A stretch of 38,230 nt of DNA from a virus. A program made the translations under genes and the position numbers. The stretch is taken from positions 1 through 38,230 of the IMG/VR virus record IMGVR_UViG_3300044616_000577. One strand, given 5' to 3'. Shown here one piece after another: positions 1 to 38,230 of this stretch (the stretch's first letter is position 1; every line of letters begins with the position of its first letter). Below the pieces are notes generated by a model that saw only the letters and a list, made by a program, of their open reading frames with translations, did no database searches and was not told the DNA's origin.

Positions 1-119
1 CTCCCCCCGCCCAAACCGTTGACATGCACCCCCCGCTTATGTTTCCCCGCGCCGACGTTACGCGGTCGCTATATGCCCGTTATGGCATAATTTATATCAT
101 AAGCGGCATGTATCTGCCC
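1..119. repeat. Terminal direct repeat, left copy
   Basis: These 119 bases are identical to 38112-38230. The simplest reading is that a circular (or circularly permuted) genome was assembled with its ends overlapping, so the unique length is 38,111 bases. A length of 119 equals a k-mer size used by some de Bruijn assemblers, which favours an assembly overlap over a true packaged terminal repeat. Within the copy, an inverted repeat pairs CCGCTTATG (33-41) with CATAAGCGG (98-106) around an AT-rich stretch. Confidence 0.95.
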
Positions 120-134
120 GTTCGGTGCATGTCT

Positions 135-180
135 ACCCCCGCAATAGCTTGTGCACCCCCGCAGCAGCTGTTGCACCCCC
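135..180 (+). repeat. Two 20-bp iterons plus a partial third
   Basis: Unit 1 is ACCCCCGCAATAGCTTGTGC (135-154), unit 2 is ACCCCCGCAGCAGCTGTTGC (155-174), and ACCCCC at 175-180 begins a third. The core GCANNAGCTNNTGC is a dyad. The same unit recurs on the minus strand at 10646-10665 and 10671-10690 inside the replication-protein gene, so this is probably a binding site for that protein. Confidence 0.8.
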
Positions 181-609: not shown

Positions 610-1134
610 CTAGTCCTCGTTCGAGGTGACTTCCGCCGGTTCCCCGTACTCGACGCGCTGAATGGCGGGCAAGCTGAGTGTGCTGGCGGCCGTATTCAGG
701 CTGGCCGCCACCACCGACTCCTTCAGCGCCTGGACATTCCGCACCGGCGCGTCCTCTTCCAGCACCTTGACTTGCAAGGTCTGCTGGCCCTGATGCTCGA
801 CCACCTGCTTTTCCCCGTACTCGATGGGCGCGGCCTTCGCGGCCGCCCACTTCAAGGTGTCAATCAGCGTCCGGTCCTGCGCTGAGGTCGCGTTACTGGA
901 CTCCCGCGCCACCCGAATCGCCTCCTCCGCGAACGCCGCCCCCAATAACGGCCGCATCCGCCGATACTCCTCGTACACCGCCGGGTCCCGCGCTATCCAC
1001 TGCCGGATGGTCCCCGCCCGCACCTTCACCTCCCGCGCCGTATCGGCCACCGTGCGGCCGTTGGCCATCCCCAGCAACACCTGCGCCACAATCTCCCGCC
1101 GCTCCTCCGGCGTATGCTCACTCTCTCTTGACAT
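610..1134 (-). CDS. terS: Terminase small subunit
   Basis: This 174-residue protein probably binds the phage DNA packaging site and hands it to the large terminase at the portal. Residues 10-50 read as a helix-turn-helix of the kind found in Sf6/P22-like small terminases, with TVADTAREV and TIRQWIA as the turn and recognition helices. Residues 68-110 match the family's oligomerisation helices, including DRTLIDTLKWAAAK followed by the typical P-x-x-YGEK segment. The tail from 110 is acidic and variable. The ATG at 1134 has GAGG five bases upstream. The order small terminase then large terminase on the minus strand is kept across the circle junction, but about 820 gene-free bases lie between them, which is unusual. 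Identification rests on domain pattern and synteny. Confidence 0.8.
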   Translation of the reverse strand: MSRESEHTPEERREIVAQVLLGMANGRTVADTAREVKVRAGTIRQWIARDPAVYEEYRRMRPLLGAAFAEEAIRVARESSNATSAQDRTLIDTLKWAAAKAAPIEYGEKQVVEHQGQQTLQVKVLEEDAPVRNVQALKESVVAASLNTAASTLSLPAIQRVEYGEPAEVTSNED

Positions 1135-3031: not shown

Positions 3032-3222
3032 TGCTCATCACGACACAGAAAGCGATTTACGAGCTAGATAGGGCGGTTCTGGCCCTTATTAGGTACCCGC
3101 AGACACCTAGCAACGTGGCGCGATATGTCAAAGCGTTGGCGCGGGTGGCGGGATGCACACAGGAGGAGGTGCGGGTAGCTATCGGCATGCAGGGAAAGAA
3201 GGCCGAAGGGTCGGAGCAGTAA
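3031..3222 (+). CDS. Small hypothetical helical protein
   Basis: This 63-residue protein is translationally coupled to the preceding gene. It consists of two or three helices (KAIYELDRAVLALIRY, NVARYVKALARVAG, TQEEVRVAIGM) with a charged C-terminal tail. The compact arrangement could be a small helix-turn-helix-like fold, but no canonical recognition helix is visible. A 30-bp perfect palindrome follows at 3233-3262, so this gene probably ends a transcription or mRNA-processing unit. Confidence 0.65.
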   Translation: MLITTQKAIYELDRAVLALIRYPQTPSNVARYVKALARVAGCTQEEVRVAIGMQGKKAEGSEQ

Positions 3223-3232
3223 GACGGGCAGG

Positions 3233-3262
3233 GGGGTGCCCGTTCGATCGAACGGGCACCCC
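3233..3262. repeat. Perfect 30-bp palindrome
   Basis: The arm GGGGTGCCCGTTCGA (3233-3247) is followed directly by its exact reverse complement (3248-3262). In RNA it forms a very stable hairpin. There is no T-run after it, only ATCACACACC, so intrinsic termination is uncertain. It may act as an mRNA-stabilising or processing hairpin between two early genes, or as a DNA dyad for a dimeric protein. Confidence 0.75.
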
Positions 3263-3287
3263 ATCACACACCACACAGGGGAAGACC

Positions 3288-3479
3288 ATGCAGACCGCTA
3301 TCCGTGAGGAGTTCGCCTATCTCAACCGCCTCCGCAAGTCAGGGGTGGTCAATATGTGGGGCGCGGGGGAATATCTTGCCGACGAGTTCGGATACGAAAG
3401 CACCACGGCGCGAAAGATTGTCGCCGATTGGCGGGAATGGGTGGGCGAAGATGCGGCGAACCGCGACAGGGGGTGCTAA
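3288..3479 (+). CDS. Small conserved phage protein, helical
   Basis: This 63-residue protein resembles short proteins common in uncultured phages. The recurrent pattern is F-x-x-L-x-x-L-R-x-S-G-V-x-N-M-x-G-A, then a Y-L-x-x-x-FG segment, then a helix ending in a conserved W. Here that reads as YLNRLRKSGVVNMWGAGEYL, then EFGYESTTARKIVADWREW. The family has no assigned function that I know of. The ATG at 3288 lies behind AGGGGAAGACC and follows the CACACCACACA leader. Confidence 0.7.
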   Translation: MQTAIREEFAYLNRLRKSGVVNMWGAGEYLADEFGYESTTARKIVADWREWVGEDAANRDRGC

Positions 3480-3481
3480 TC

Positions 3482-3610
3482 ATGCGCCCCTATCAATGGG
3501 AACCCGCCCCCAAGTACCGCCCCCCGACCTTGTGGGAGAATCTGAAGGAGACCGCGGGAATCTGGCTCCCCTTTCTGATTCTCGCCATAGCTGACGTTAT
3601 CGGGGTGTAG
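3482..3610 (+). CDS. Small single-pass membrane protein
   Basis: This 42-residue protein starts at the ATG at 3482, two bases after the previous stop. Its N-terminal half is proline-rich and charged. Residues 26-42 (GIWLPFLILAIADVIGV) form a membrane-spanning segment that reaches the C-terminus. Small tail-anchored proteins expressed early can modify the host membrane or block superinfection, but nothing specific is shown here. The ribosome-binding site is GGGGGTGCTAATC, partly inside the previous gene. Confidence 0.6.
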   Translation: MRPYQWEPAPKYRPPTLWENLKETAGIWLPFLILAIADVIGV

Positions 3611-3686
3611 GTCGCCCCTTGCGGATTCTTGACTAGGCAGGGATATTCTTGACACCACGCAGGACCACACCACACAAGGGGGACGC

Positions 3687-3893
3687 ATGAGATGGCGCAT
3701 TATCCACAATGGGTGGGACGGCATGACAGACCTGTCAGACGTTCGGGATGGGTTCCCTGCCTACTCCCCCGCCGAGCTTGTCGGGGCGCAATATGTCGGG
3801 GCCGACGATGTGCAGGGCGACGTCTGCTTGCGACTGACCGACGGGCGCACGGCATGGCTTGTCTCGACCGACCTAGAAGTTTCCCCAAACTAA
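3687..3893 (+). CDS. Small hypothetical beta-rich protein
   Basis: This 68-residue protein starts at the ATG at 3687 behind AAGGGGGAC. The N-terminal half is acidic. The C-terminal half reads as strands (GAQYVGADDVQGDVCLRL, RTAWLVSTDLEV). It is preceded by a CACACCACACA leader and by the TTGACT/TATTCTTGAC element at 3629-3653, so it may begin its own transcript. No family is recognised. An ATG at 3723 would give a shorter product, but the strong ribosome-binding site favours 3687. Confidence 0.65.
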   Translation: MRWRIIHNGWDGMTDLSDVRDGFPAYSPAELVGAQYVGADDVQGDVCLRLTDGRTAWLVSTDLEVSPN

Positions 3894-3920
3894 CCCACCC
3901 CACCACAGAGGAGCCCGACT

Positions 3921-4109
3921 ATGCGCACCTATCAAGTCACCCTGATTTACACGACCACCGATGACCGCCCCGAGGCGGGGCCCGATTATTGGGACTGGCC
4001 CGAGCTACTCGACCTCGGCCCCGCCGAGCAGTTGAGCTACTTCGCGGAGCCGGTCACGCTTGACACCGAACACGCCCGACTGATTACCGAAGCCATCACC
4101 GCCGACTAA
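3921..4109 (+). CDS. Small hypothetical acidic protein
   Basis: This 62-residue protein starts at the ATG at 3921 behind AGAGGAG. It is strongly acidic. It begins with a beta strand (TYQVTLIYTTT), continues with a loop rich in W, P and D, and ends in a helix (EHARLITEAITAD). An acidic surface of this kind is a feature of many phage DNA-mimic and inhibitor proteins, but so small a sequence gives no firm assignment. It opens the densely coupled micro-gene run that continues to 6430. Confidence 0.65.
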   Translation: MRTYQVTLIYTTTDDRPEAGPDYWDWPELLDLGPAEQLSYFAEPVTLDTEHARLITEAITAD

Positions 4110-4136
4110 CACACCACACAGAGGAGACCAAAGACC

Positions 4137-4331
4137 ATGACCGCCCACGACTTGCTGACCTTTCTCCGCGACTTGGAGCGCCGAGGGCTCGACTTGGCGA
4201 CCATCGAGGTCAACTTCCGCCACGACTTCGACAGCGATGTGACCGAAGTGGAGGGCGTATGTGAGGACTTGTATGACGCCGAGACTAGCTCGCGCCTCAC
4301 CTCTATCGTCCTCTACGCCGAGGAGGACTGA
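4137..4331 (+). CDS. Small hypothetical acidic protein
   Basis: This 64-residue protein starts at the ATG at 4137. A helix (DLLTFLRDLERRGLDL) is followed by strands (TIEVNFRHDF, VEGVCEDLYDA, RLTSIVLYAEED). The helix-then-strands layout and acidic composition match many short phage proteins of unknown role. The ribosome-binding site AGAGGAG lies unusually far (about 15 bases) from the ATG. No closer in-frame start exists. Confidence 0.65.
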   Translation: MTAHDLLTFLRDLERRGLDLATIEVNFRHDFDSDVTEVEGVCEDLYDAETSSRLTSIVLYAEED

Positions 4332-6993: not shown

Positions 6994-7354
6994 GGACCCG
7001 AATGGTCACCACCGCCCCCGCCGTGGCCTTATCGCACGGCTCGACGAAGCGCCACAGCTCCCATCGGACCTGACTATCATCCCACCACACCGCCTCCCCC
7101 GCCGTGATGCCGTCCTTCGCGTTCTTGGACCAGTTGAGGTCCCGCCGCCGGCGGTCGGGCTCCCGCACCACGACTTCGAGCGCAAGCGGCCCCTCTTGGC
7201 GGGTCCACTTGGCCTTCTTGGCCGCCGCGAGCGACAGAGCGCCTATCAGTTGCTTGCTTTCACGATACTCTTTGGTCAGGATGAACTGCCCGTTGATGAA
7301 CTTCCGGTTGTCCGAGCAGAGGCCCGACCACGGCACCTCGAAGGTCAATATCAC
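6668..7354 (-). CDS. rusA: RusA-like Holliday junction resolvase
   Basis: Residues 1-124 match the RusA fold, which cuts Holliday junctions as a homodimer using acidic residues and magnesium. The signature is visible: EPDRRRRDLNWSKNAKDGI at 66-83 and VWWDDSQV at 89-96, giving D67, D72, D92 and D93 as likely metal-binding residues. The start is the GTG at 7354 (GTGA overlap with the primase-helicase stop) behind AAGGACGG. E. coli RusA is about 120 residues. Here the reading frame continues to 228, but residues 125-228 are low-complexity (proline, arginine, glycine, alanine) and are overlapped by a better-looking frame (6640-6993). The true end may therefore differ. It would resolve replication or recombination branches before packaging. 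Confidence 0.75.
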   Translation of the reverse strand: MILTFEVPWSGLCSDNRKFINGQFILTKEYRESKQLIGALSLAAAKKAKWTRQEGPLALEVVVREPDRRRRDLNWSKNAKDGITAGEAVWWDDSQVRWELWRFVEPCDKATAGAVVTIRVLDGFQDAPNIGDDAQPPMGRPRELPRPPAERLQREGGVRGGSAAAVEPVGATARGAKRRRQPARPPRERGTGRAVAGGEGAPETQAGPVRPQAKAPRAARHLNVETPR

Positions 7355-9087
7355 CGCATCCGTCCTTGGCGGGTGAGCCGCCCGTGAATGGTCTCCGACT
7401 CCTCAATGGTGAGGTCGCGGGGTGTGAGGCGCAAGGTGGTATAATCCCACCGCACCGGAATATCCGCGACCGCGCCGTGCCGATTCTTGTCCACGATGAG
7501 CCAGGTGTTGGCAATCGTCCCCTGCCGCTCGAACCGCGAGTGGTCGAAGAGCAGCACCTGATGGCTGTCATTCTCGATGGCGCTCCCACCCATCAGCCCC
7601 TGCGCGGTCGGACGCTCGGCCCGATTGGCGCTGGTCTGGCGGTTGAACTGCGAGAGGCCGACCATCGTGACGTTGAGACTCTGCGTCAGGTCGCGGAGCT
7701 GGTGGGCCACCACCTCGATGCGGTCGTGGACGCTGCTGCTGTTCGCGGTCCATGCCAGCTGCAAGTAGTCCACCACGAAGTAGCGCGAGCCGTGCACCTC
7801 GTGGTAATACTTGATACAGGCCGCGACATCGGAGAGTTTGGACAGCGGGCGGCGATTCACCATCAGGTGCCCACCCGACATCTCCCGGATGCCGTCGAGC
7901 ATCTTGCCCGCCCGCACGAACTCGTCCTTGCTGAAGAGCGCCCCCTGCTCCATGTGCGATACGGGGTACCCCGAGGCGATGGACAGGAAACGGGTCGCCA
8001 ACTCCGAGCGGCCCATCTCCAGCGAGAGGAAGGTCGCTACCTCGCCGTGCTTGATGGCCTCGTAAGCTAAGTTAAGGGCCACCAACGACTTGCCCGTCCC
8101 CGTATTCGCGCCGATGGTGATGAACCAGCCCCGTGCCAAGCCGACCCCACCCCCACCGCCGTGGCAGAGCTGGTTCCAGCCGGGTATCATCGTCGGCACC
8201 GCATCGATAGGCGCGAGCTTCTCGTCGAGTAACTGCGTGATGGTGTCGCCCGTGATGCTGTCGAAGGCAATCGCTGGGCCCTCGGCTCCGATGGGCGTGG
8301 CCTTATCACACAGCGCCCGGAACGTGTCACCAAACCGTGCCGACGGGACGCGCTGGTGCAGGTCGCAGAGGTCCTTGACGGGGTCGCCGTCAATCGTCAC
8401 CTCGCGGATGACCTTGGCGTTGGGCAGGTCCTTGGCGATGGCGCTGACCAGCGTGGCCCCACCCTCGTCCGGCTCCTGCCAGACAAACACCTGTTTATTG
8501 GCGAGCAGCGGGGCGTATTCCGAGCGCCATTGGCTGGCCCCAGGCAGCCCGACCACCGCCAGCCCGTGCTGCCACCCTGCGTGGCAGTCCGATTCGCCCT
8601 CTACGACCAAAATAGGCGCATCTACGGGGGCTTTGGCAAGGACATCCTGCCCGTAGAGCGGCGCGCCGGTGCCATCCTTGTCCCAGAACGTGCCGTTGCG
8701 AGTGCGGAGCTTGGTCCGCAGCACCTTGCCGTCGGCGTCCCGATACGGGATAGCGACCAGCGCGTCCCCGAACTTGCCCGTCCGCTCCTCGACCCCAGCC
8801 AAGCGTAGGGTCTCCAGCGACAGCCCCTTGCGCTCGGCGTACTCGATGAGACTCAGGCCCCGCGCCTTCTCCTCGGGCAGTTGGACCCCGAGTTCCGAGG
8901 CCAGCGAGTCGAAGTGTTCGGTGAACCCGCAGGCCGAGCAGCCCCATTGATGGTCACCCAGCCACGCCGAGGCGGTGCCGTCACGATGGCGAGGGCACCG
9001 GAACGCTATCGTCTTCCCCGTCTTCCGGCTCCCCGGCTTTTTGAGCAGGGCCTGCACCAGCACACCACGTCGGTCCATCGTATGCAC
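7351..9087 (-). CDS. Bifunctional primase-helicase (T7 gp4 / Twinkle type)
   Basis: This protein should prime and unwind DNA at the fork. From the GTG at 9087 it has 578 residues. A zinc-binding motif (C31, H34, C50, C53) and a Toprim-like domain (VVEGESD at 161-167) form the primase half. A RecA-type DnaB helicase half follows, with Walker A GANTGTGKS at 326-334, SLEM at 355-358, Walker B VVDYLQL at 438-444 and SQFNR at 479-483. The GTG has AGAGGAG nine bases upstream; an ATG at 9078 or a farther start (9165) are alternatives. It overlaps the 67-residue gene upstream in another frame. No polymerase is encoded, so it probably works with the host polymerase III holoenzyme. Confidence 0.9.
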   Translation of the reverse strand: MHTMDRRGVLVQALLKKPGSRKTGKTIAFRCPRHRDGTASAWLGDHQWGCSACGFTEHFDSLASELGVQLPEEKARGLSLIEYAERKGLSLETLRLAGVEERTGKFGDALVAIPYRDADGKVLRTKLRTRNGTFWDKDGTGAPLYGQDVLAKAPVDAPILVVEGESDCHAGWQHGLAVVGLPGASQWRSEYAPLLANKQVFVWQEPDEGGATLVSAIAKDLPNAKVIREVTIDGDPVKDLCDLHQRVPSARFGDTFRALCDKATPIGAEGPAIAFDSITGDTITQLLDEKLAPIDAVPTMIPGWNQLCHGGGGGVGLARGWFITIGANTGTGKSLVALNLAYEAIKHGEVATFLSLEMGRSELATRFLSIASGYPVSHMEQGALFSKDEFVRAGKMLDGIREMSGGHLMVNRRPLSKLSDVAACIKYYHEVHGSRYFVVDYLQLAWTANSSSVHDRIEVVAHQLRDLTQSLNVTMVGLSQFNRQTSANRAERPTAQGLMGGSAIENDSHQVLLFDHSRFERQGTIANTWLIVDKNRHGAVADIPVRWDYTTLRLTPRDLTIEESETIHGRLTRQGRMR

Positions 9088-9184
9088 GTGCGTCTTCTCC
9101 TCTGAAGATGCGATTCCAGTTAGTCGCCCACTCGGCTTCTGAGACCTGCGTGGGGCGTCGAACACTACCCTTCCCGTTCGTCAT
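8981..9184 (-). CDS. Conserved small phage protein (MTNGKGS family)
   Basis: This 67-residue protein begins MTNGKGSVRRPTQVSEAEW and continues NWNRIFRGEDAR. This is a start I recognise from many short phage proteins of the form MTNGKGS-x-P-R-x-x-S-V-x-x-E-x-x-x-N-x-x-x-I-F. No function is established to my knowledge. The ATG at 9184 overlaps the previous stop as ATGA. The C-terminal half, which overlaps the primase-helicase start region by about 107 bases, is low-complexity and less conserved-looking. In related phages it is typically found in replication modules, as here. Confidence 0.75.
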   Translation of the reverse strand: MTNGKGSVRRPTQVSEAEWATNWNRIFRGEDARAYDGPTWCAGAGPAQKAGEPEDGEDDSVPVPSPS

Positions 9185-9735
9185 TCGCAACTCCAGATTC
9201 TGGACTGGCGCTTGATGGGGGGAATCCCGTTGTCCTGCGTGAAGCTCGTCTCCTCGACTAGCACCATGTCCTGCGGGACGCAGTCGAAGTGTCCCTCGCT
9301 CATCGCCACGACCCAATGGTGTTTGTGCTGGCCCGGCTCCAGCGAGTAGCCATCGGATACATGGTCGAGGTAGAACCACACCTCGCCCGTGCCCACGATA
9401 TGCTTGTGGTCCTCGCTTAACACGCGGCACCGCAGGTCCTGCAAGTACCGGGGTTCGTGCGCTTCGATGTGCCACCCGTAGGCATCCCACCGCTGCGCCA
9501 TCTCGGGGAAGACCCGATGCGTGGCGTCGGGATGGTGCCGCAGGGCGTGGAGCGGGAGGTCCACCACCATCGCGCCGGACTCCAGCAGGACGTGGCACCC
9601 GAACATGCGGCCCGGCGTGGCACTCATCCCCCACCAGACAGCGGGGACTGTGGCCGTATCGGAGCCCTTGCGGTGGACGGCGGACTCGATGACGTGGATG
9701 TAGCGATGACGGGGCAGGTCGATGTTATGCGCCAT
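9181..9735 (-). CDS. Hypothetical protein in replication operon
   Basis: This protein has 184 residues from the ATG at 9735, which lies inside the end of the preceding small gene behind a purine-rich stretch. It is rich in histidine and aromatic residues. The pattern is beta-rich (RYIHVIESAVHRK, TVPAVWWGMSATPG, CHVLLESGAMVVDLPLHAL), with a later run of strands (EVWFYLDHVS, HHWVVAMSEGHFDCV) and ends in basic residues. Small phage proteins with a first strand like this occur next to replication genes, but I do not recognise the family. An upstream start at 9810 would add 25 residues that overlap the preceding gene and is less likely. Confidence 0.7.
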   Translation of the reverse strand: MAHNIDLPRHRYIHVIESAVHRKGSDTATVPAVWWGMSATPGRMFGCHVLLESGAMVVDLPLHALRHHPDATHRVFPEMAQRWDAYGWHIEAHEPRYLQDLRCRVLSEDHKHIVGTGEVWFYLDHVSDGYSLEPGQHKHHWVVAMSEGHFDCVPQDMVLVEETSFTQDNGIPPIKRQSRIWSCE

Positions 9736-9877
9736 TGGGACCTCTGGGGGATTCAAGGAGAAGGGTGAGAACATCGGTTTCGTGGGCAATCTCTTCCTGC
9801 GTTCCGGCATCCATCGTGCGCCAGAGCTTCAGTACCTGCTGATAGATGGCCTGAAAGCGCGGGTCATCCTTCAGCAT
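9725..9877 (-). CDS. Small hypothetical helical protein (50 residues)
   Basis: The ATG at 9877 opens a 50-residue product (MLKDDPRFQAIYQQVLKLW, then helical EEIAHETDVLTLLLE). GCGAGGC lies just upstream. It overlaps the preceding gene by 14 bases and the following gene by 11 bases, as is typical of coupled phage genes. It fills what would otherwise be a gap. Function is unknown. Confidence 0.6.
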   Translation of the reverse strand: MLKDDPRFQAIYQQVLKLWRTMDAGTQEEIAHETDVLTLLLESPRGPNGA

Positions 9878-10061: not shown

Positions 10062-10261
10062 AGCTCGCTCCTCGACAGGCGAATGGGTTGTGGGTCCCGA
10101 TACCACGCCTCCTCGGGGATGGCGGGGATGGTCGGCGGCAGGTCGATGGAGATGACGCGCATCCCCATGCACACCCCGCAGACCACCATGTCGTTGTCAT
10201 CCCCGACAATCTCGCCGCTCCCGTAGCAGTTGGGACACGGCACCTCTCGTGTGTGTTTCAT
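10058..10261 (-). CDS. Small zinc-finger protein (DnaJ-type CxxCxGxG)
   Basis: This 67-residue protein carries C9-P-N-C12-Y-G-S-G and C28-G-V-C31-M-G-M, two halves of a DnaJ-like cysteine-rich zinc-binding motif. In DnaJ such motifs bind unfolded protein; in small phage proteins they more often just form a treble-clef-like zinc site. The ATG at 10261 overlaps the initiator gene's stop (10258), so it is coupled to it. A role as a replication accessory factor is a guess from position. Confidence 0.75.
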   Translation of the reverse strand: MKHTREVPCPNCYGSGEIVGDDNDMVVCGVCMGMRVISIDLPPTIPAIPEEAWYRDPQPIRLSRSEL

Positions 10262-11016
10262 ACCGCCACCTCCTCTGGTTGGGTAAGTCCGGCTAATCGG
10301 TCAAACTCCAGCACATCCTGCCCCGACCGCTTCCACTCCTCACGGGTGCGGCCGTGTACCGTAAGTACATCGTACGCACGCCACGCCCCGTCGGCGAGCC
10401 AGCGGTTGAGCGTCTTCACATACTTGGCATCGGTCTGGTTCAGCTCGCAATGCACCGCATACCGCGCCGCCGCACGCCGAACCCGCTCGAACGGGACCCC
10501 CTCCCGGATTAGCGCGTTCAGCTCCTTCACGACCGGCGACCAGACAATCGGCTCGGGGCGCTCTGGGTAGGTCTCTTCCAGCGCCCGCAGCTCATCTTTC
10601 GTCGCGCCGGGTAGTTTGGGGGTCGTTCCCTGGGGTCGTTTGGGTGCAGCAGCTATTGCGGGGGTGGGGTGCACTAGCTGTTGCGGGGGTGCGGCGGGCT
10701 GCGGGGGTGAAGACTCGTCCCAAGAGTTAGGCATACCGGCGTAGCCAACCTCCGGCTGGAGCTGGACCTCGTATATGTTGGTCTTGCCAATGCGGATTGT
10801 CCTAGTGATGTAATGGCGCTTCTCCAGTTCAGCACAGGCCATCTGCACCGTGCGCTCGCTGACCCCTGCCTCCGAGGCCAGCGTCCGCACCGAGGTCCAG
10901 ACCCCACCGCCCAGCTTGTTCGTGTGAATCCCGATGGCGCAGAGGACCCGGAGCTGGGTATGGGTCAGGTCGCGGTCCATGACCGCCCGCGCCGGGATGA
11001 TGGAGAGGTTAGGCAT
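10258..11016 (-). CDS. Replication initiator-like protein (lambda O-type layout)
   Basis: This 252-residue protein probably binds the origin and recruits the helicase. Residues 12-90 form a winged helix (LTHTQLRVLCAIGIHTN, WTSVRTLASEAGVSERTVQM, then KRHYITRTIRIGKTNIYEV as the wing). Residues 95-145 are a proline/alanine/glutamine linker. Residues 150-225 form a helical C-terminal domain like those of phage replication proteins and helicase loaders (VVKELNALIREGVPFERVRRA, YVKTLNRWLADGAWR). The linker is encoded by iterons (10646-10708) that match those at 135-174, so the gene appears to contain its own binding sites, as lambda O does. The ATG at 11016 has GAGGTG upstream and overlaps the methyltransferase stop; a GTG at 11034 is less likely. 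Confidence 0.75.
   Translation of the reverse strand: MPNLSIIPARAVMDRDLTHTQLRVLCAIGIHTNKLGGGVWTSVRTLASEAGVSERTVQMACAELEKRHYITRTIRIGKTNIYEVQLQPEVGYAGMPNSWDESSPPQPAAPPQQLVHPTPAIAAAPKRPQGTTPKLPGATKDELRALEETYPERPEPIVWSPVVKELNALIREGVPFERVRRAAARYAVHCELNQTDAKYVKTLNRWLADGAWRAYDVLTVHGRTREEWKRSGQDVLEFDRLAGLTQPEEVAV
10646..10708 (-). repeat. Intragenic iterons in the initiator gene
   Basis: On the minus strand, ACCCCCGCAACAGCTAGTGC (10690-10671) and ACCCCCGCAATAGCTGCTGC (10665-10646) match the 20-bp units at 135-174. A degenerate 18-base copy (10708-10691) precedes them, and five bases (ACCCC) separate the two full units. They encode linker residues about 103-124 of the replication protein. Confidence 0.8.
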
Positions 11017-11521
11017 TGGGCACCTCACCGGCACGCCAAACGCCTAGCATAGCCCCGGAGCCGTGGAACAGGTCGGTAATAGTATCCCCGCTTTTTACGT
11101 TTGCGCCAAGCAACTCCACAATCCAGAGCGCGAACCCCGGCGGCTTGGCCCCAGGGACCCCGCGCTTCATCGCAATCACCTCGGAGTGCCAATCTCGCAC
11201 GGTCGGCTCCTTGCGGCTTCGCTTTGTGCGCCCTCCGCGCCAAACGACTGGCTCCCACGCATAGGCTGGATTGACTCCGGGACGAAAGACGGCGAATGGC
11301 TTGACCCACGATGCCCAGCGAATGTCTGCCGGAAGCATAGGGGCGATTTGCCGGATACTTGGCGTATGCAGGGACATTGCCCACCCATCTGGGTAGGTGT
11401 CCTGCAAAAACTCAATGAGGCGCTGATGGCGCGCTGGGGTGTCCCACTCCGGGAACTCGTACAACTTCTCGCCACACCCAAGATACGGGGGGTCGGCATA
11501 AGCAAAACGCATACCTGACAT
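11009..11521 (-). CDS. DNA adenine methyltransferase (beta-type motif order)
   Basis: This 170-residue protein has the catalytic DPPY at residues 10-13 near the N-terminus and an AdoMet-binding DLFHGSG near 150-156. This order (catalytic motif first, AdoMet motif last) is that of beta-class amino-methyltransferases. It would methylate adenine N6 (or cytosine N4) in a short target to protect phage DNA from restriction or mark the origin. No partner endonuclease is visible. The start ATG at 11521 follows CGAT with only weak Shine-Dalgarno sequence (GAGGAGCGAT). It ends inside the start of the initiator gene, so the two are coupled. Confidence 0.85.
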   Translation of the reverse strand: MSGMRFAYADPPYLGCGEKLYEFPEWDTPARHQRLIEFLQDTYPDGWAMSLHTPSIRQIAPMLPADIRWASWVKPFAVFRPGVNPAYAWEPVVWRGGRTKRSRKEPTVRDWHSEVIAMKRGVPGAKPPGFALWIVELLGANVKSGDTITDLFHGSGAMLGVWRAGEVPNA

Positions 11522-23881: not shown

Positions 23882-26800
23882 TTAGACGTGGTAGGTGAAG
23901 GAATAGCGAATAGTGCCAGCACCTGCGTAAAAATCAGCAGCCGTTGACGTGGCGACGACGCCCGTTGATTGGGTCTGCGTCTGTAGAATTGGTGCCGTCG
24001 AGTTGTTCACGAGTAGGATGTAATAGACCTTGCCCGCTACGCCGAAATCGTCCACCGACAACGAACCCGGCACTTGATAGGTTGACCGGTTGATGGAGGC
24101 AAAGGGCAATCCGCCCATCACCACATCGCCTGACGCGGTGCCTTTCGTCACGGCGATACGGCCCATCACGGTAACCACATTGCCAATTTTCGTGTACACG
24201 CCTACGGCTGAAGCTGTCGAGACGGTACCCGGCGTGGTAAACGTCGCGGTCGGCGTAAACTCGCCTTCCTCGTAATCGTCCAGCGTGTTGGCGTCCGAGG
24301 AGGCCGACTGCGTGGCGGGAAAGGTGATGCCGTTTGAGACCTGAATGACACCGCCCGACGCATTCTCGGTCGTCGTGCCAACCAGCAACCGCCCCCCGCT
24401 CGTGATGCGTGCGCGTTCGGCAATGCCAACACCGTTCTTGAACGTTGCAAACTGCAGATAACCGTCTCTGTTGTTTGCCGTGCCGTTTTCTTTTCTTCCT
24501 GAGAGTTTTGCAAACTGAATTGTCGTGTCAGCAAGCCCCCCCAGCGCCAAACTGCCGCCAAAATCTACGGTTTGAGAATCCGTTGTGTATACGCCAATAT
24601 TGCCACTATTTGCTACTGTAGCATTTAGTGCGTGGACATCTAGCCTTCCCGCCGGACTCGTCGTCCCCACCCCCAAGTTCCCACTCGCGTTCAGCGTCAT
24701 CTTGGCGTCGCCGAACGAAATGGCGTTCCCGGCGGTGCCAGAGGCGGCGGTGAGCCACGAGTGTGCGCCAGAGATTTGACGATACGCCGACGCGGCGGCA
24801 GACGTTACATATACAAAGTTGGCGCTTGCGTCCAAGAACGCATTTTGTGTCAGGTTGACCTGCGATGTTTGGAAACCCGACAACGCGCCACCTGAAAACT
24901 GAAACGCCTTCGCATCAGACGACCACGCACTCGGCGTCACCCCGAGGCCGAGGTTGCCGGAAGCGTCGAGGCTTACACGGCTCGCGCTGGCAACGAGGTC
25001 GTAAATCTCAAAGATACGGGTGGTGTCGTTTGTTGAGACCGCGTTACCAATGGCCCACATATCGGCGTTCGCATTGACGCCGAAGAAACGCATCGCGGTA
25101 TTGTTGGTCGAAGCCGAACTGCCACGAATCCGCAGAGCCGTTGCCGATGTGCCAACTACATCCAACGCATAAGCCGGACTCGCCGTCCCGATGCCCACGC
25201 GGTTGTTCGTGCTATCGACCTTGAGCGTCGAGGTATCCACCGTCAGGTCGCCGCTGACCGTCAGCGAGGACAGGGTGCCGACCGAGGTAAGGCTGGAGCT
25301 GACCACGTTCGCGGCCAGCGTCGTCCCGGTCAGCGTCCCCGCTGGGGCTGTGCCGGAGATGTTCCCCGTCAGGTTCGCGGTGATGGTCCCCGCCGAGAAG
25401 TTCCCCGAGCTGTCCCGCGCCACAATCGCGCTGTTCGTGTTGGCGCTGGTGGCCGTGGTAGCCGAGTTGGCGACCTTACCCGCCGTGGAGATGGTGGCAA
25501 GGTTGCTATCCGCCAGCGCCGAGCTGAGGGTCAAGGCCCCCGTGCTGTCGGCGATGGTGATGCTGGCCGTGCCGTCCTTAGCCTTGACGTTCGTGACCTC
25601 CACGCTGGTCGCGTCCACCGTGGTGGCGTTGACCGTGGTGATGTTCCCGGTCGTCGCGGCCACGGTCGTGAACGTGCCAGCGGCGGCGCTAGAGCCACCG
25701 ATGGTGGTCCCGTCGATGGTGCCGCCGTTGATGTCGGTCGTGGTCAGCACCGAGGACGCAATGGTCATCACGCCCGTGCTGTTCGCAATCGTGGCGCTGG
25801 TGGTGCCGTCGTTGGCCGAGACCGTCCCCGTCTCGATGTCGGTCGCGTTGACCACATCGTCCTTGAGGAGGACGGAGTCGATGGTGACACCAGACCCCGA
25901 GGTCGTCTCGTCAATCGTGTTGGTGGTAATCTTCTGGCCAGCCGTCACGATGATGTTATTGGCACCCGTCGTGTTCCCGTTGGCCAGCACCTCGGCCAGC
26001 GTGTCCACCGTGGCGACCTTGGCATCCACATACGCCTTGATGCTCTGCTGGGTCGCCAGCGCCGTCGCACTGTCAGAGGCCATATTGTCCTCGTCCAGAA
26101 TGTTCGTGACCGTCGTGGCCCCGGTCCCCTTGAGGCTGGCGAAGGTGACGAGGCCCGTCGAGGTCACCGCCCCCGCCGTAATCGTCCCGGCGCTGAAGTT
26201 GCCCGAGGCGTCGCGGAGGACGACTGTGCTGGCCTGATTGTTCGACCGCTCCACGATGCGCGGGGAGGAGAACTCGACGTAGAGGACGCCGTTGTTGGCG
26301 TTAGAGCGGAGGACGAAGGCGACGGCCTGGTAGTTGCCCGAGGTCGGCTTGGTCGCCGTGAATCCGCCCGAGGTGTTCGGGTAGAGGATGTCGCCAATCG
26401 AAAAGGCATTGGTCGCCACATCCAAGATGAGGCCCGTGTTCGTGATGTACCCGGTCGCGCCATTGGCGATGGTCGTCGAGTTGACGATGCCGAACGCCGT
26501 ATCCGAGGCGCTGGCGACCTTGGCCACAATCGGGGCCCCCGTGCCGTTGTTGTACCCGGTGACCTTGACCACGTCGCCCTTGACCAGCGCCTCGCCCGCG
26601 ATGACGAACACGTCGATGTTCCCGGCGGCGACCTCATGCCACGTCGTCCCGTCGTCATACCAGAGCTTGTAGACGCCCGTGTCGGCGGTAATCCACTTGC
26701 GGCCTGCCGTCCCGGCGACTGGCCGTGAGGCCAGGGTCGAGGACTGGACGTGGATGCCCGTGTCGGCGTCGTGCGCGACGTAGGCGGTGCGGATGGTGTT

Positions 26801-36581: not shown

Positions 36582-37898
36582 TTACCAGCCCTCCAAGGGC
36601 AACTGCGAGGTGAAATCGCCCACGGTCGCGAGGGACTGCGGGGTGTGGTCCTTCTCGGCCACATGGGGGTCATTGCCAATCAGGGACGGCGGGGGGACCG
36701 AGCCATCGGGCTTCACGCACTGGACCCGGTCCCACCCGTGGATGGCCAAGGCCAGCGCCATCACGCCGTCATCGTGGTAGCCTTTCGGGGCCTCGTACTT
36801 GACCCCGTTGGCCGTGTAGGTAAACTCGAACGCCTCCAGCTCGGACTGGAGCCACCCCTCCGGGATGGTCAGGTCCTTCGCCTGAAAGACCGCAATCAGG
36901 CGCTGCATGAGGCGCAGCTTGCTGCTTTGGGTAAAGACATGCGGACTGACCGACAGGCCCATCGTCTGCAAGTCCGCCACAATCGCGTCGCCCACGCCCG
37001 TGGCATCGGCCACGACGGGGACTTGTTTGACCATCTCTGCAATTTTGGTCTTCGTTTCGGCCCACGGCGACTGCCAGCGCTCCAAGACACAGACCTTCAT
37101 CCACGGGTCCAGCCCACAGACCACGGTGTAGTCCATCGACCGCGCCAAGTCGATTCCGTAGACCACCGGCTGCTCGGTACTCAGCTCGCCGACGCATTGG
37201 CGGATGGCCTCTAACCCGAAGGGGTTCGCGCCATCGTCGGTCGGGATACCCTCGAACTCCTGCTGGAAAATCTCGGGCGGCAGCTCTTTTCGGGCCGCTT
37301 CGACTTCCTCGGCGGGGATGTAGGGGTTGGTCAGCGTACTGGCCCGGAAGCTGGCCCAGTCCGGGTCATCCCCTGCCTCTCCGCGGTGAAACAGGACCAC
37401 AAAGCCATGCCGCCGACCCTTGGGCGTACCAAGGATGAGGGCTCGACCCCCCAGGTCAACCAGGGTCGGACGGATGGCGGCTTGCCAGACGGCCAGCAAA
37501 TCTTTCGCAATGCCGGCCTCGTCGATGACGGCCAGCGCGTATTTACGTCCACGGGCGGGGTCAGGGCTGTCCAAGGTCCAGACCTCGACCACCCCGCCGG
37601 TTTTCAGTTCCAACCGCTTGTCTTGCTCCGACTGCCGGTCGATTAACGGTCCCAGTCGCACTACCAGTTCCCGCCACGCTTCCAGCGCCAGCTTGTAGCT
37701 GGGGGCGAACCACCCCACCGGCTGGCCTTTGAGCGCGGCATCGCAGACCAGACGGATGCCTAAGGCCGACTTCCCGAACCGCCGGCCACACATGACGACC
37801 CGGAACCGGGCCGGGTGGTCGGCGATGGCTTTCTGGCCGGGGTGCAGCTTGTGCAGCCGGACATCGACCGTCGTGGGTTGGGCTGAAGGACTCCGCAT
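36582..37898 (-). CDS. terL: Terminase large subunit
   Basis: This 438-residue motor-nuclease packages DNA into the head. All key motifs are seen: Walker A G38-R-R-F-G-K-S44, Walker B V124-I-D-E-A-G129 with catalytic E127, coupling motif LILGTPKG at 154-161, and the RNase H-like nuclease with D250 (YGID), D298/D304 and HDD at 375-377. It is close to the length of P22/Sf6-type large terminases. The ATG at 37898 has TGGAG upstream. The gene's 5' side faces the gene-free junction segment, with the small terminase gene about 820 bases further upstream on the same strand. Downstream genes are tightly coupled. Headful packaging from a circularly permuted concatemer is likely, consistent with the circular assembly. 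Confidence 0.95.
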   Translation of the reverse strand: MRSPSAQPTTVDVRLHKLHPGQKAIADHPARFRVVMCGRRFGKSALGIRLVCDAALKGQPVGWFAPSYKLALEAWRELVVRLGPLIDRQSEQDKRLELKTGGVVEVWTLDSPDPARGRKYALAVIDEAGIAKDLLAVWQAAIRPTLVDLGGRALILGTPKGRRHGFVVLFHRGEAGDDPDWASFRASTLTNPYIPAEEVEAARKELPPEIFQQEFEGIPTDDGANPFGLEAIRQCVGELSTEQPVVYGIDLARSMDYTVVCGLDPWMKVCVLERWQSPWAETKTKIAEMVKQVPVVADATGVGDAIVADLQTMGLSVSPHVFTQSSKLRLMQRLIAVFQAKDLTIPEGWLQSELEAFEFTYTANGVKYEAPKGYHDDGVMALALAIHGWDRVQCVKPDGSVPPPSLIGNDPHVAEKDHTPQSLATVGDFTSQLPLEGW

Positions 37899-38111: not shown

Positions 38112-38230
38112 CTCCCCCCGCCCAAACCGTTGACATGCACCCCCCGCTTATGTTTCCCCGCGCCGACGTTACGCGGTCGCTATATGCCCGTTATGGCATA
38201 ATTTATATCATAAGCGGCATGTATCTGCCC
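38112..38230. repeat. Terminal direct repeat, right copy
   Basis: Identical to 1-119; marks closure of the circle at unique length 38,111. Confidence 0.95.

Follow-up and report, generated by a model that had tools for sequence, protein, structure and literature searches.

The replication initiator of an uncultivated phage very probably carries a replication origin within its own linker codons. The origin resembles those of lambda O and SPP1 gp38, with a second oriR-like site elsewhere in the genome and a phage primase-helicase that would take the place of the helicase loader. The phage is IMG/VR record IMGVR_UViG_3300044616_000577, whose whole stretch of 38,230 nt was analyzed and is called the window here. 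An origin inside the initiator gene is a plan that is already known; what appears to be new is the present variant, which is without two of the defining details, a separate loader and a clear A+T-rich region in the window, and which adds two features, AACG repeats of 12-13 bp and a terL-proximal second site.

The genome and its initiator gene

A direct overlap of 119 bases between its ends (1-119 = 38112-38230), together with the near-identical contig L004, which spans the end junction, shows the window to be a complete phage genome of ~38.1 kb, circular or circularly permuted. The initiator gene is open from a GTG (Table 1), but the ATG at 11016 (MPNLS...), conserved in the alignment of the relatives, is the more likely start. 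Comparison of the initiator with PHROG gave matches to a replication initiation protein family (3e-18) and to an O-like replication initiation family (7.5e-10). Its best families are thus phage initiators, its Pfam matches are to HTH domains only, and no match to a plasmid-family Rep was found. In the AlphaFold model the winged helix has mostly pLDDT values >80 and the helical C-terminus is confident, whereas residues 96-125 of the linker have pLDDT <50 and are disordered. The HTH_36 match, the O-like PHROG and the model all agree with a preliminary description of this DNA, which had proposed a lambda-O-like initiator with a winged-helix N-terminus and a helical C-terminus. Searching the PDB with the window initiator, by sequence and by Foldseek, returned generic winged helices alone and gave no assignment for the C-terminal fold.

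The phage had also been credited with its own primase-helicase, which the PHROG and Pfam matches bear out (Table 1). Among the neighbouring genes scanned, neither a lambda P-type loader nor any other loader family was recognised, and an unrecognised loader is possible. The gene at 9181-9810, between the initiator and the primase-helicase, has PHROG 3704, labelled ferredoxin, as its sole match (3.2e-15).

Table 1 Positions of the initiator gene, the candidate origin elements and the associated genes in the window
Feature	Position	Strand	Basis
A+T-rich stretch GATATAAATTATG beyond box-like site, candidate unwinding element	86-98	-	sequence
Box-like GCACCGAACGG, imperfect box match, terL-sense side of non-coding iterons	118-128	-	sequence
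Non-coding iteron CCCCCGCAATAGCTTGTGCACCC	136-158	+	sequence, BLAST
Non-coding iteron CCCCCGCAGCAGCTGTTGCACCC	156-178	+	sequence, BLAST
Terminase small subunit (terS)	610-1134	-	Pfam Sf6_terminase 1.9e-15; PHROG terS 1.8e-15
Primase-helicase, presumed initiator partner	7351-9165	-	PHROG DNA primase/helicase 7.6e-51; Pfam DnaB_C 6.7e-34
Replication initiator gene (258 aa from GTG)	10258-11034	-	PHROG and alignment of relatives
Linker codons (residues ~96-145), candidate origin	10600-10749	-	low pLDDT; excess codon conservation in relatives
Second AACG, 13 bp on from first	10624-10627	-	sequence
Conserved box CACCCAAACGA, beside iterons	10636-10646	-	kept in relatives
Linker iteron, box-proximal, CCCCCGCAATAGCTGCTGCACCC	10642-10664	-	sequence
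Linker iteron CCCCCGCAACAGCTAGTGCACCCC	10666-10689	-	sequence
Degenerate third linker iteron, GGGGGTGCGGCGGGCTGCGGGGG / CCCCCGCAGCCCGCCGCACCCCC	10685-10707	-	sequence alone
Winged-helix DNA-binding domain codons (residues ~10-90)	10765-11007	-	Pfam HTH_36 1.7e-10
Terminase large subunit (terL)	36582-37898	-	PHROG 1.1e-40

Iterons, box and AACG repeats in the linker codons

The linker codons contain two abutting 25-bp direct repeats (10642-10666 and 10667-10691) that are 88% identical, and a degenerate third iteron, so that the two full and one degenerate copies of the preliminary description were all recovered. On the coding strand the unit reads CCCCCGCA-NN-AGCT-NN-TGCACCC; it is an imperfect dyad flanked on both sides by a G/C-run. 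The self-repeat score of the window linker is 16, compared with a maximum of 12 in 300 synonymous-codon shuffles. The intrinsic dyad score does not separate the linker from the shuffles (p = 0.99) because the dyads of the window are imperfect.

Beside the iterons lies a box conserved in the relatives, within which the first AACG of the window is found (10637-10640). The window has two AACG repeats and most relatives have three. The linker segment is not A+T-rich (0.38 vs 0.36 for the genome), and its A+T excess over 50 nt is just 0.02, against 0.15 on average in the relatives; in the segment where opening would take place, however, A far exceeds T (0.34 vs 0.04). GC skew was left unused since it is dominated by coding strand bias.

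A second, non-coding cluster between terS and terL

The non-coding gap that terS and terL border on the circle contains two further iteron copies at ~135-179, with a spacing of 20 bp. BLAST with the linker as query against the window matched these copies at E ~5e-5 to 9e-5. A more A+T-rich stretch (0.55) comes after the cluster, and the A+T-rich GATATAAATTATG occurs a second time at 38197-38209 because the contig ends overlap. The match between the linker and the region upstream of terL is modest when the window is taken alone (p = 0.033 under synonymous shuffling), as the Pro/Ala peptide itself favours C-runs; the case rests on the relatives. The preliminary description had the linker iterons right but mentioned neither the non-coding copies nor the circular ends, nor the box with its AACG repeats.

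Positions 1-700 of the window gave no match to a sigma-70 promoter. Beside the non-coding iterons, at 211-292, the palindromic CCATGTGCACATGG occurs twice together with copies of ACATGTG, and the CCATGTGCACATGG pair is also found in one relative (G001), where it lies between the iterons and terL. Three others (G004, G006 and G017) have long AACGAGTAAACG or CTAGTAG-type short-repeat runs between iterons and terL. On the far side of terS, non-coding DNA of the window at 1292-1515 forms a second repeat-rich stretch with TTTCACG repeats and TCACATTGTGACCTACGTCACA dyads.

Conservation of the layout in relatives

A direct search of IMG/VR for relatives of the window initiator gave none, because the peptide patterns used were derived from a single sequence, and no relative was found in GTDB genome contigs. 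Scanning with the neighbouring primase-helicase led to the identification of 25 IMG/VR loci (60-79% identity); more relatives came from an alignment of initiators, and whole contigs were fetched and read. The initiators of these relatives (~25) are 41-61% identical to that of the window. Every full-length initiator carries 2-3 G-flanked dyad iterons in its linker, with a core that is lineage-specific: GTGCA-NN-AGCT-NN-TGC in the window and G021, TCATCTAGGTGAAC in G001, TCGCATAGCTATGCGA in G003, GTGTCACCCGTGACAC in G002 and GTGAC-N6-GTCAC in most other relatives.

To locate such sites we used the pattern GGGTGWC-N4-9-GWCA in place of a generic scan for G-flanked dyads, which was too strict, and defined a cluster as at least two units. 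The 32 contigs scanned contain 16 clusters, of which 10 are in linkers and 6 lie 106-212 bp upstream of terL; none was found elsewhere in these contigs or in Markov shuffles. Of the 25 full-length initiators, 24 have an 11-bp box, CACCC[A/T]AACG[A/G], after the iterons, and 8 terL-upstream regions have it too; a looser box pattern, as searched, had just 7 other matches in ~1.04 Mb. After the box follow AACG repeats spaced 12-13 bp apart (2.9 per 50 nt vs 0.2 elsewhere in the gene). Triplets of AACG at this spacing occur 20 times in 1.04 Mb, all 20 of them in initiator linkers.

Iteron pairs upstream of terL that match the linker type were detected in many relatives, 6 by the strict pattern and more by eye; those of G010 and G017 were missed by BLAST of the linkers and found by reading and pattern search. 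The cluster is absent from G002, G012, G024 and G027; G025, with an initiator almost the same as that of G024, does have it. This distribution bears on the possibility that replication starts mainly at the terS-terL cluster, with the linker copies as a secondary site serving as control sink, handcuffing partner or fork barrier. We consider this arrangement unlikely: the more A+T-rich stretch that follows the non-coding cluster, set against a GC-rich linker segment, would suit it, as would the differing roles of the two SPP1 sites of this kind (PMC6316719), but linker sites occur in all full-length initiators whereas several relatives, G024 included, have no terL-upstream cluster, and the AACG triplets are confined to linkers.

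The DNA pattern also served as a search tool. A search of IMG/VR that was blind to protein retrieved 16 contigs, comprising 3 initiators of the family, 8 sites of the intergenic type in related-looking DNA and ~5 chance matches. Since the pattern alone found sites of the family in a public collection, it can be used for annotating origins in metagenomic phages. A second DNA pattern retrieved contig L141, which encodes a distantly related initiator whose linker contains window-type dyads; this gene (3158-4315) has four G-flanked linker dyads, the last of which is of the window type (GGGGTGCAATAGCTATTGCACCC).

The linker is conserved as DNA rather than as peptide

The box is read in one frame, as (S)PKR, in most phages and in another, as HPN, in G006, G012/G013, G023, G024, G025 and G026. 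The iterons also differ in orientation, being C-rich on the coding strand of the window (PPQQLVHPTPAIAAAPKR) and G-rich for the same motif in G021 (EGVQELLREGGAIAAAPKR). Two frames for the box and opposite orientations for the iterons indicate that it is the DNA that is kept and not the peptide.

Synonymous change points the same way. Among codons for identical amino acids it averaged 0.267 in the linker and 0.552 in the rest of the gene over 177 pairs, and was lower in the linker in 169 of them. As these pairs are not independent, a better test is given by 11 disjoint pairs, in which 39 of 201 linker codons and 518 of 1283 other codons had changed synonymously (odds ratio 2.8, Fisher p = 2e-9). 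Excess codon identity by column was 0.37 in the linker and 0.07 elsewhere. The preliminary description, which placed a lambda O-like origin within the linker codons, named normal synonymous variation among relatives as the finding that would refute it. We observed the opposite, and this conservation at the DNA level supports the placement of the putative origin. These results agree with, but do not prove, the further suggestion that the linker may owe its existence to the need for an origin in this DNA.

A low-complexity Pro/Ala/Gln linker expanded by slippage, with a functionless DNA pattern, would account for a disordered segment of biased composition. We give this reading practically no credit, as it is already contradicted by the iteron copies in non-coding DNA, the box in two reading frames, the opposite iteron orientation in G021 and the synonymous constraint. 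One step beyond the origin itself, it is conceivable, if somewhat doubtful, that the linker is kept for its DNA to the extent that its amino acid sequence is for the most part incidental to an origin able to turn round or shift frame, and that the matching terS-terL site ties the initiator to late replication or packaging.

Linker and terL-upstream sites match within phages

In 12 phages, scores between linker and terL-upstream region were higher within a phage (16.1) than between phages (11.5; permutation p = 0.00025), although part of this signal is shared ancestry, with which motif class and winged-helix sequence are both confounded. The linkers of the window, G001 and G003 find their best or near-best match in their own upstream region, and those of G001 and G003 match strongly there only. 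For the window linker the score is 19 with the upstream region of the window itself and 20 with the G021 region, in which C-runs (CCCCCGCAACACCCCCGCAACA) match partly; the G021 linker in turn matches the non-coding cluster of the window (17). Pairing is not strict, since the main core upstream of terL in G021, GTGAAGC-N2-GCTTC, differs from the window-type iterons of its own linker. This array consists of three tandem GGGGGTGAAGC-N2-GCTTC units (25221-25268, in contig L049) and is possibly a mosaic or a second specificity.

Sites and winged helix are absent together

In G020 and G022, and separately in G029-G031, the initiator consists of the C-terminal part alone. These C-terminal-only initiators without iterons form two lineages (contigs L024, L026 and L102-L104), in whose contigs the winged-helix profile had no further match. 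Nor did they contain an iteron cluster, a CACCC[A/T]AACG box or an AACG triplet, an absence that is not absolute because the contigs are not closed. The two lineages without the winged helix are thus also without linker and iterons, indicating that the three come and go together. With the two-frame box and the two dyad orientations, this joint absence with the DNA-binding domain makes the family a natural case of DNA overriding protein within a gene.

Both terS and terL are still present in these lineages. If the repeats were packaging (pac) or TerS binding sites that occur in the initiator by happenstance, as the position of the second cluster between terS and terL and the helix-turn-helix of TerS might suggest, they would hardly be absent jointly with the winged helix of the initiator while the terminase genes remain, nor would they always be present in the initiator gene. 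We regard this explanation as highly improbable.

Proposed mechanism and comparison with known origins

In the mechanism that we propose for the linker-codon origin, the winged-helix domain would bind the 2-3 dyad iterons midway along the initiator gene. The imperfect inverted repeat in each unit makes binding as dimers probable. Once bound, the array would strain the adjoining box and the A-rich, strand-asymmetric AACG repeats, leading to opening, and the helical C-terminal domain may then bring the phage primase-helicase to the opened strand. The same initiator would also bind the terS-terL cluster, which, by analogy with SPP1 oriR, could be a fork barrier or an origin used alternatively or late. 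The AACG repeats of 12-13 bp are a candidate strand-opening or helicase-loading element for O-type origins without a recognisable loader.

The dyad shape suits a winged-helix dimer equally well if the sites are operators, used by the initiator to repress terL and its own expression, with no replication start there; the sites do lie upstream of terL and within the initiator operon. This is very unlikely in our view, because an operator ~300 bp inside a gene is poorly placed to control a promoter, the iterons with their ordered box and A-rich AACG triplet resemble iteron origins (lambda, PMC5043065), and the best families of the initiator are replication initiators.

One of the closest parallels to the proposed origin is lambda O, whose iterons lie mid-gene as imperfect inverted repeats of ~19 bp that are bound by dimers and are followed by the opening region (PMC5043065, PMC7466680). 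The window initiator shares with it the N-terminal winged helix and tandem imperfect-dyad iterons at mid-gene. It differs in that the phage has a primase-helicase as partner and no P-like loader gene among the neighbours scanned, that the putative opening region is marked by AACG every 12-13 bp and, in the window, is not A+T-rich, and that the family has 2-3 iterons rather than four and a second cluster near terL.

That second cluster recalls SPP1, in which gp38 has direct repeats in its own gene 38 (oriL) and in a distant intergenic part of the late region (oriR), each with an unwinding region, and in which gp38 bound to oriR has been proposed to halt forks, setting off the switch to concatemers (PMC6316719). 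The same sites likewise recur in a distant intergenic region of the window. Unlike SPP1, which has the loader gp39, the DnaB-type helicase gp40 and host DnaG, the window phage encodes a primase-helicase, and the second cluster of its family is at terS-terL and is not found in all relatives. The plasmid iteron origins of RK2, P1 and pSC101 also have tandem initiator sites adjoining an opening region, but their iterons bind monomeric initiators (PMC5043065) and are located outside the rep gene, whereas the sites in the window are dyads inside the gene.

In all, this analysis gives a candidate replication-start site for a family of uncultivated phages. G-flanked tandem dyads are also found in the linker codons of O-like initiators from cultured phages (Bradyrhizobium ppBdUSDA122-1, Pseudomonas JBD68 and PseuP_224), which belong to different protein families and whose origins are unannotated in these records. 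In ppBdUSDA122-1 the dyads are followed by AACG repeats 13 bp apart. PseuP_224, unlike the window phage, has a DnaB-type helicase gene next door, and its iteron unit, CCCCCGCAGGAGCTGCACCC, is nearly that of the window.
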